NCBI GenBank assembly: GCA_016868395.1 | Contig: VGGW01000008.1 | Location: 1 to 32,730, forward strand | Reading direction: 5' to 3' | DNA: 32,730 nt | Source: Bacteroidota bacterium | Lineage (GTDB): Bacteria; Bacteroidota; Bacteroidia; Sphingobacteriales; Sphingobacteriaceae | In this document: positions 1,401-27,404 of the stretch, in pieces | Layout: each line of letters opens with the position of its first letter | Position numbering within the stretch: position 1 is the first letter of the stretch | Translations under genes and position numbers: made by a program | The notes under the pieces: generated by a model | Seen by the model: only the letters and a program-made list of their open reading frames with translations | What the model was told of the DNA's origin: nothing | Database searches by the model: none

Positions 1401-1877
1401 TTAAAGTGTGATCTGACGTTTTATACTTTCTTCAAGTGAGATTAAAGTCTCTGTCCTTTGTATGCCTTTTACCCCCTGGATATCCTCGTTAAGTACCTGC
1501 CTTAAATGATTGGTATCCCTGCAGATTATTTTTGCAAACATGCTGTAAGAACCGGTTGTATAATGTAGTTCTACTACTTCTTTAATTTTTCTTAAATTTT
1601 CAACGGCATCTTTGTATTGAGAACCTTTTTCAAGATAAATACCCAAAAATGCACATATATCATAACCAATTTTTTGAGAGTCAATAATGAGATGAGAGCC
1701 CTTAATAACTCCCAGGTCATGCATTTTTTTCATCCGCACATGAATCGTGCCGCCTGAAACAATCAACTTTTTTGCAATTTCAGTGTATGGAATAGTTGCA
1801 TCTTCCATTAGTATACATAAAATCTGCGTGTCCAGATTGTCAAGTTCGAAATTTTGGCCTCTATTTTCCATATTCAT
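1401..1877 (-). CDS. Lrp/AsnC family transcriptional regulator
   Basis: The 158-residue protein has the two-domain plan of feast/famine regulators. An N-terminal winged helix-turn-helix (residues about 13-60: LDNLDTQILCILMEDATIPY, TEIAKKLIVSGGTIHVRMKK) is followed by a RAM (ligand-binding, oligomerising) domain with the family pattern GYDICAFLGIYLEKG and VVELHYTTGSYSMFAKI. Such proteins usually sense amino acids and bind DNA as octamers or hexadecamers. It is transcribed alone and converges on pdhB. The start could be the ATG at 1877 or the one two codons in. The specific effector and regulon cannot be read from the sequence. Confidence 0.93.
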   Translation of the reverse strand: MNMENRGQNFELDNLDTQILCILMEDATIPYTEIAKKLIVSGGTIHVRMKKMHDLGVIKGSHLIIDSQKIGYDICAFLGIYLEKGSQYKDAVENLRKIKEVVELHYTTGSYSMFAKIICRDTNHLRQVLNEDIQGVKGIQRTETLISLEESIKRQITL

Positions 1878-2011
1878 TTATAAAAATATTAACAATTACG
1901 CAATATAATTATATTTTAAATAAAAATTAAAATAGTTTGTTAAAATATTTGCAATAAATAAAGACTTGTTATAAATTCGTCACATACAATCGAAATAGAT
2001 TGTTTACACAC

Positions 2012-2124
2012 TGTAGGGTGGTGAAATTTGGCAGACACACCTCCTCGTCTCGGTGGCGAAGATTTGGGAAATACCTTAACCGGGAAATAACTGCTTCGTG
2101 GAGGTTCGAATCCTTCCCCTACAG
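2012..2124 (+). tRNA. tRNA-like gene, Leu-type body with aberrant anticodon loop
   Basis: A full cloverleaf can be drawn. Acceptor stem TGTAGGG (2012-2018) pairs perfectly with CCCTACA (2117-2123). T8-G9 are present. The D arm is GTG/CAC with a Leu-like loop. The anticodon arm is CCTCC (2040-2044), loop TCGTCTC (2045-2051), GGTGG (2052-2056), with one T-T mismatch. The variable arm is closed by CGAAG/CTTCG (2057-2061, 2094-2098). The T arm is GGAGG-TTCGAAT-CCTTC (2100-2116). Oddities: position 33 is C, not the near-universal U; the formal anticodon is GTC (Asp) on a Leu-type body; the first pair is T1-A72; the discriminator is G; CCA is not encoded; and the variable region is about 43 nt, with GGGAAATA occurring twice. 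It has its own terminator. It could be a divergent tRNA, a tRNA-like regulatory RNA or a decaying gene. Confidence 0.7.
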
Positions 2125-2163
2125 CAAACCTTATTCAACAGGTTTATAATTGGTTAGTTTAAA

Positions 2164-2188
2164 TAAGCTCCTGCCCATCAGGAGCTTA
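2164..2188 (+). terminator. Terminator of the tRNA-like gene
   Basis: A perfect 10-bp stem, TAAGCTCCTG (2164-2173) with CAGGAGCTTA (2179-2188), has a five-base loop and is followed by ATTGTTT. It lies 40 nt beyond the tRNA-like 3' end, so the RNA appears to be transcribed as a single-gene unit. Confidence 0.7.
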
Positions 2189-25996: not shown

Positions 25997-27253
25997 TTAA
26001 GCAATATTAAATGCTTTTTTAACCGGTTCAATATAATCTAATTTTTCCCAAGTAAACAGCTCAACTTCAACGGTTTTGCTATCGCCATTGTTTCCTGAAA
26101 AAGTTTTGCTTATCACTTCACTTTGACGTCCCATATGACCATAAGCTGCGGTTTCAGAATAAATTGGATTACGAAGTTTTAAGCGGGTTTCGATTCCATA
26201 TGGAGTCATATCAAAAATGGCAGATATTTTTTGTGCAATCTCACCATCATTTAAACCAACCTTTGAAGTTCCATAAGTATCGACGAATATTCCCATCGGG
26301 TCTTTAACACCAATAGCATAAGAAACCTGTACCAATATCTCACTACAAACTCCTGCGGCGACTAAATTTTTTGCAATATGTCGAGTGGCATAAGCTGCCG
26401 AACGATCTACTTTTGAAGGGTCTTTTCCTGAGAATGCACCACCACCATGAGCACCTTTTCCACCGTAAGTGTCCACAATGATTTTACGGCCGGTTAGTCC
26501 GGTATCTCCATGTGGTCCTCCGATTACAAATTTTCCGGTAGGATTGATGTGATATTTTATGTCAGATGTGAAAAGTTTCTGAAGTTCCGGTTTAAGTTGC
26601 GCTTTTATTCTTGGAATGAGAATGGATATAATATCCTCCTGAATTTTTCTCTGCATGGTTATTTCTGTATCAAAGTCATCATGCTGAGTAGATACCACAA
26701 TTGCATCAATACGAATTGGTTTGTGATCATCACCATATTCAATGGTAACCTGCGATTTCGCATCAGGTCTAAGATATTTAATTGCAGAGTTCTCTCTCCG
26801 AAGGACAGCAAGCTCTGTTAAAATCTTATGTGCCAGATCTAAAGCCAATGGCATATAATTATCAGTTTCGCTGGTGGCATATCCAAACATCATACCTTGA
26901 TCCCCTGCACCTTGGTCTTGTTTCTTTACTCTTTCTACCCCCTGATTGATATCTGCCGATTGTTCATGAATCGCTGAAATAACACCGCAAGAATCAGCCT
27001 CAAACATATATTCAGACTTGGTATAACCAATTTTTCGAACCACTTCACGAGCAATTTTTTGTACGTCCAGGTAAGTTTGTGATTTAACTTCTCCTGCTAA
27101 TACAACCAAACCCGTGGTAACTAAAGTTTCACAGGCAACTTTTGAATCAGGATCCCAGGCTAAAAAGTTGTCAATTAATGCATCTGAAATCTGGTCAGCC
27201 ACTTTATCCGGGTGGCCTTCTGATACTGATTCGGAGGTAAATAAATAAGGCAT
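25997..27253 (-). CDS. metK: S-adenosylmethionine synthase
   Basis: MetK makes S-adenosylmethionine from methionine and ATP as a cytoplasmic tetramer. The 418-residue protein starts [20 protein letters not shown] with the methionine/ATP-binding His, then [17 protein letters not shown] (ATP loop), and the signature [20 protein letters not shown] with the catalytic Lys and Asp, and [18 protein letters not shown]. The length is somewhat above that of the 384-residue E. coli enzyme, as usual in Bacteroidota. The 5' leader (27254-27412) shows no recognisable SAM riboswitch. The Nudix gene follows after about 70 bp. Confidence 0.97.
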
Positions 27254-27404
27254 AGTGTGTCAATTAATATTAAAAAATGAGATGTTTTAATGTGTTGCGA
27301 AAAAAGATGGAAGGAAATTGATCGAAGTAAAAATCAGCAAATTGTTTTAGCACTTTTTTTTACGTGGTTGCAATCAACGCAAATCGATCCACTTTCTCGC
27401 ACAA

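Follow-up and report, generated by a model that had tools for sequence, protein, structure and literature searches.

In Deinococcus, Thermus and Bdellovibrio, AspRS and GatCAB act on tRNA-Asn: a carrier with U1-A72 and G73 is loaded with aspartate, which GatCAB then amidates. The carrier in this route is the decoding tRNA-Asn itself, and a non-discriminating AspRS is needed. Bacterial GatCAB recognises the U1-A72 pair of tRNA-Asn, and Bacteroidetes are listed among the genera that have AsnRS and GlnRS but are missing asparagine synthetases (PMC4206432). The asnA gene of E. coli, which encodes an asparagine synthetase, is divergent from asnC and activated by AsnC, and asparagine lowers this activation (PMC8707732). 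The cell-wall tRNA-Gly and the allo-tRNAs stand outside ordinary decoding, as does the RNA described here. To our knowledge, no non-ribosomal tRNA is devoted to the synthesis of a free amino acid.

The stretch of DNA that we analysed (32,730 nucleotides, hereafter the window) carries at positions 2012-2125 of its plus strand a complete, non-decoding type-II tRNA-like RNA, as can be read directly. It represents a conserved and previously uncatalogued RNA of many Bacteroidota. We consider it likely that this RNA is a carrier reserved for tRNA-dependent asparagine synthesis, and thereby a variant of a known pathway: it would share with the carrier of Deinococcus, Thermus and Bdellovibrio the U1-A72 pair, G73, the load of aspartate and the amidation by GatCAB, whereas the proposed carrier is a separate, non-decoding RNA with an aspartate anticodon.

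The mature body, which extends to C74, was delimited from direct reading, homologues and covariation. Its acceptor stem (TGTAGGG/CCCTACA, 2012-2018 and 2117-2123) comprises seven base pairs, the first being U1 with A72 (2123), and the 3' strand continues into the discriminator G73 (2124) and an encoded C74 (2125), so that the acceptor 3' end spans 2117-2125; G73 is found in all RNA sequences and G73-C74 in 73 of 73 class-wide sequences. The D stem (2021-2023/2036-2038) is a three-base-pair stem of Leu type, and the D arm TGGTGAAATTTGGCAGACAC closely matches TGGCGAAATTGGTAGACGCA of the tRNA-Leu(GAG) of the same genome, in line with the Leu-type body that the preliminary description had recognised. 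The anticodon stem (CCTCC/GGTGG, 2040-2044/2052-2056) contains one U-U mismatch and closes the loop TCGTCTC (2045-2051), which reads as noted earlier, with C33 and the formal anticodon GTC (G34 U35 C36), followed by U37 and C38; positions 33 and 37 are variable among homologues. The mismatch, U29-U41 within 2040-2056, is near-constant in the bacterial family of the window and paired in most other families. The variable arm indeed measures 43 nt (2057-2099) and is built of a basal stem, a second short stem, an internal loop with GGGAAA opposite UAA, and an apical hairpin of varying length; compensatory changes occur in the basal, second and apical helices. The motif GGGAAATA, previously reported to occur twice, is present in both copies, but only the first lies in the conserved internal loop and the second is not conserved, and we therefore rejected the doublet as a meaningful repeat. 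The T arm (2100-2116) displays TTCGAAT and is backed by covariation as well as by direct reading.

The proof of this structure is comparative and is read from aligned homologues, with covariation in all arms, which bears out the earlier impression of a nearly perfect cloverleaf under constraint. Double changes were seen in 13 of 30 pairs among 54 family sequences, and in 21 of 30 pairs among 73 distinct class-wide sequences. In the class-wide alignment 97.7% of cells are paired, against 50-58% in slid controls, and none of 500 shuffles reached any of the five measures; that alignment was fitted to a covariance model and is biased towards structure, which is not the case for the family alignment of 54 sequences. 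Covariation backs the whole cloverleaf (seven-base-pair acceptor, D, anticodon and T arms), and the acceptor stem alone occurs in the compensatory variants TGTAGGG/CCCTACA, TGTTGGG/CCCAACA, TGTAGGA/TCCTACA and TGTAAGG/CCTTACA. Energy folding of the single sequence did no better than shuffles (z -0.20) and is uninformative.

ARAGORN called no tRNA in the window and missed every copy of the RNA that was tested. Rfam yielded no match to the RNA in the window even at E<=10, and among four other loci only one (L118) matched the generic tRNA model RF00005, at 36.1 bits. By BLASTN, relatives are found in many of the closest genomes; within the same family they were seen in 128 of 201 genomes, from 15 of the 25 genera sampled. 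Extending the search to 395 genomes of the class with covariance model R1 gave members in 67 of them, scoring 61-130 bits and, in 66 of the 67, at least about 67 bits, whereas ordinary tRNA-Leu-like matches of 77-88 nt reached at most about 66 bits. Length and features were used alongside the score to separate the two groups, and one genome (G539) was counted as a member at 61.5 bits since its 173-nt match has all the features. A pattern scan of named genomes listed matches in Daejeonella, Pedobacter, Arcticibacter, Chitinophaga, Ferruginibacter, Dyadobacter, Algoriphagus, Cyclobacterium, Echinicola, Fulvivirga, Saprospiraceae and others, and among the matches listed all are Bacteroidota. A literature search, mostly of openly readable journals, returned neither a published description of this RNA nor any separate, non-decoding tRNA set apart for making asparagine. 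The homologue search that the preliminary description had called for therefore shows a widespread RNA in which anticodon positions 34-36, position 38 and the variable-arm helices are conserved; the absence from relatives and random stem substitutions that were to indicate a pseudogene are not what is observed, and its first suggestion, a noncanonical tRNA, holds in the form of a non-decoding, conserved family.

The RNA is often present in several tandem copies per genome. One genome (G023) carries five near-identical copies in tandem at 150-nt spacing (L064:1004-1720), and other genomes hold up to five copies about 370-400 nt apart. Several of these are located at contig ends, and assemblies may consequently undercount them. 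One degenerate copy, situated between asnC and intact copies (L009:1343-1449), is probably a pseudogene. An extended subtype (26 sequences; L118:1699-1841, L030:1505-1680, L159:1501-1672 and others) has, in its variable arm, an apical module of 46-85 nt with the near-invariant GGGUUGACCAC.

Bacterial aspartate identity comprises G73, G10, G34, U35, C36 and C38 (PMC9976931). In the RNA, G34, U35 and C36 are each present in 113 of 113 family copies and C38 in 112 of 113, and these four positions are nearly invariant in the 73 class-wide sequences too. G10 occurs in 52 of 54 family sequences; class-wide, A10-U25 is commonest, and the AspRS identity set is thus matched except for G10 at that scale. 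Also absent is G1-C72, which helps to position the acceptor end in E. coli AspRS: U1-A72 is found in all 73 distinct class-wide sequences, with G2-C71 equally invariant. The window genome has a normal tRNA-Asp(GTC), with G1-C72, the loop CTGTCAC and a G73-C74 end without encoded CCA. With such tRNA-Asp (GUC) the RNA has in common G34, U35, C36, C38, G73, G2-C71 and a CC-rich anticodon stem, and it differs by U1-A72 in place of G1-C72, a pyrimidine at 37, a variable position 33, the three-base-pair Leu-type D stem and the long, structured variable arm. U33 is the commonest base at its position (89 of 113 family copies, 57 of 73 class-wide), the C33 of the window copy being confined to its genus and some relatives, and position 37 is a pyrimidine in 103 of 113 family and 67 of 73 class-wide sequences; U33 together with a purine at 37, as decoding would demand, is not a property of the family. 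The long variable arm is that of type-II tRNAs (tRNA-Leu and tRNA-Ser), and the D arm is Leu-like. Unlike tRNA-Leu, however, the RNA has a GUC loop and always G73 instead of A73, and the preliminary description was right that this discriminator does not suit LeuRS. The resemblance to serine-type identity that it saw is not supported: the bacterial Ser set includes C72 and C11-G24 (PMC9976931), whereas the RNA always has A72, C11-G24 occurs in 11 of 73 class-wide sequences and U11-A24 in most members, and the loop and G73 fit the aspartate set. Given the Asp-type anticodon positions and U1-A72, the RNA unites, on a Leu-type body, an anticodon end of aspartate type with an acceptor end of asparagine type, and its decoding features are lost.

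The gene content of the genomes is consistent with this combination. All 67 RNA-bearing genomes of the 395 have gatB, compared with 229 of the other 328 (99 without; Fisher P 6e-10), and not one of the 67 carries an AsnB equivalog, which 49 of the other 328 possess (P 1e-4), although the genome sets behind these P values were compiled by hand, the P values overstate independence since the genomes are related, and some genomes are incomplete MAGs. The presence of GatCAB was judged from gatB alone; in the window genome gatB is truncated where its contig stops, the match ending 4 bases before that point. Among 60 relatives, all with AsnRS (60 of 60), 44 bear GlnRS, and of these 29 have both the RNA and gatB, 14 have neither and one has gatB without the RNA, an agreement in 43 of 44 (P 1e-10, again counting related genomes as independent). 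In the single exception (G047) gatB and aspS form a fusion that encodes a protein of 1106 aa (L323:804-4124, contig C19) with GatB at its N-terminal and a bacterial-type AspRS at its C-terminal end, suggesting that aspartate charging and amidation are coupled in this lineage, which lacks the RNA. Weak gatB matches similar to this one exist in other genomes of its family (f12). Two members of the window's family (G027 and G029) have gatB and neither the RNA nor GlnRS, and without GlnRS they need GatCAB for Gln-tRNA; one genome (G049) has the RNA and no GlnRS, and its GatB is accordingly explained regardless of the RNA. Three genomes of the window's own genus (G006, G012, G015) and four of other genera (G022, G034, G035, G036) are without RNA and gatB and have an AsnB of 555-578 aa, with AsnA in addition in G035. 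In three genomes with RNA, GatB and AsnRS (G013, G023, G037) no asparagine synthetase exceeded any cut-off used. Most RNA-bearing genomes do have AsnB-like proteins of 600-650 aa above the TIGR01536 cut-off, which we take, from their size and general knowledge, to be putative polysaccharide-locus paralogues.

The only conserved neighbour of the RNA, in family and class-wide loci, is an AsnC-type gene; no toxin or transferase partner is conserved beside it. In the window this transcriptional regulator of the Lrp/AsnC family (1401-1877, minus strand) is divergent from the RNA gene and was assigned from NCBIfam, structure match and linkage. Its top NCBIfam model is AsnC PRK11179 at 178.9 bits, with Lrp at only 47.6; the score lies under the 227-bit AsnC equivalog cut-off, yet far above any other Lrp-type model. 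The AsnC model matches 27 of 27 neighbour regulators tested, and the solved structure nearest to the window protein is E. coli AsnC (2cg4). A divergent Lrp/AsnC gene lies about 110-265 bp from the RNA in some 80 of 101 family-set loci and in 39 of 64 loci class-wide. In E. coli asnC-asnA the AsnC-type gene is likewise divergent from an element apparently for asparagine synthesis, but the target is an enzyme gene there and an RNA gene here. Between regulator and RNA a promoter of Bacteroidota type (TTTG, 20 nt, TAnnTTTG) can be recognised in several genera. In the window it consists of the element TTAAAATATTTGCAA (1940-1955, plus strand), conserved 5' of the RNA in several genera and including the -33 box TTTG (1948-1951), and a putative -7 box TAAATTCG of the TAnnTTTG type (1972-1979, plus strand), which aligns with TACATTTG in related genera at the same 20-nt spacing from TTTG. 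TTTG with TAnnTTTG is the pattern of Bacteroidota promoters. An AT-rich stretch further upstream is also conserved and may contain the AsnC operator. Downstream, the separate terminator reported earlier corresponds to a terminator-like hairpin at 2164-2188 on the plus strand; one such hairpin was found where chance alone would give 0.2. We dismissed the ORFs that overlap the RNA, whichever their strand, as chance translations of a conserved RNA.

According to our hypothesis the RNA would be transcribed under the AsnC-type regulator, and trimmed and CCA-tailed as other tRNAs. First, the ordinary AspRS would load it with aspartate, because it has the Asp anticodon GUC, C38 and G73. Secondly, GatCAB would convert the bound aspartate to asparagine, because the first pair is U1-A72; this would not be expected on the normal tRNA-Asp with its G1-C72. 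Both steps are contingent on AspRS and GatB tolerating the long variable arm. The non-decoding loop and the bulky variable arm would bar from the ribosome an RNA that bears both Asn and an Asp anticodon, and asparagine would finally be released for AsnRS; no enzyme for this release was found. With somewhat more reserve, we also think it probable that we are dealing with a tRNA family solely for amino-acid synthesis, chimeric and non-decoding, with an aspartate anticodon, an Asn-type acceptor end and asparagine-responsive control, and that in many Bacteroidota this family takes the place of asparagine synthetase. If so, the RNA evolved as a pure metabolic carrier apart from decoding, an unannotated conserved RNA family is added to a large part of the Bacteroidota, and the supply of asparagine would be explained in bacteria with AsnRS, GlnRS and GatCAB, without asparagine synthetase and without a relaxed AspRS.

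The strongest competing explanation is that the RNA acts as a scaffold, binding AspRS and GatCAB as a transamidosome that amidates aspartate on normal tRNA-Asn, its own charging being unneeded. Thermus tRNA-Asn scaffolds a transamidosome, the same identity positions would serve for binding, and the co-occurrence with gatB fits equally; we nonetheless judge this role unlikely, since the invariant G73-C74 and perfect acceptor stem suggest a 3' end in use, and the GUC anticodon suits charging by the ordinary AspRS, which makes a relaxed enzyme unnecessary. The RNA could also donate Asn or Asp outside the ribosome for a different purpose, for example to modify a peptide, a lipid or the cell wall. 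Non-decoding tRNAs in such roles exist, the staphylococcal cell-wall tRNA-Gly among them, and tandem multicopy genes would suit a donor, but no transferase gene is conserved alongside and the complementarity with AsnB points to asparagine supply, so that we regard this as quite improbable. More doubtful still is a decoy or amino-acid sensor, by which an AsnC-controlled RNA would titrate AspRS or GatCAB and thereby regulate asparagine metabolism: the AsnC neighbour and the non-decoding loop agree with it, whereas U1-A72 would not be needed and the lack of AsnB in all RNA-bearing genomes is left unexplained, and a sponge, as once suggested, is a less probable role than that of GatCAB substrate. 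A decoding tRNA that is aberrant or in decay (a pseudogene, an isoacceptor for Asp, or a tRNA for Ser or Leu), which the Leu-like D arm and the C33 of the window copy might evoke, is hardly credible and already contradicted, given that class-wide conservation with compensatory changes rules out a pseudogene, a normal tRNA-Asp(GTC) is present, positions 33 and 37 break the decoding rules, and the identity positions misfit Leu, excluded by G73, and Ser, against which A72 argues.

Elsewhere in the window, an ordinary SAM-II riboswitch (27337-27398, minus strand) lies upstream of the gene for S-adenosylmethionine synthetase (25997-27253, minus strand).
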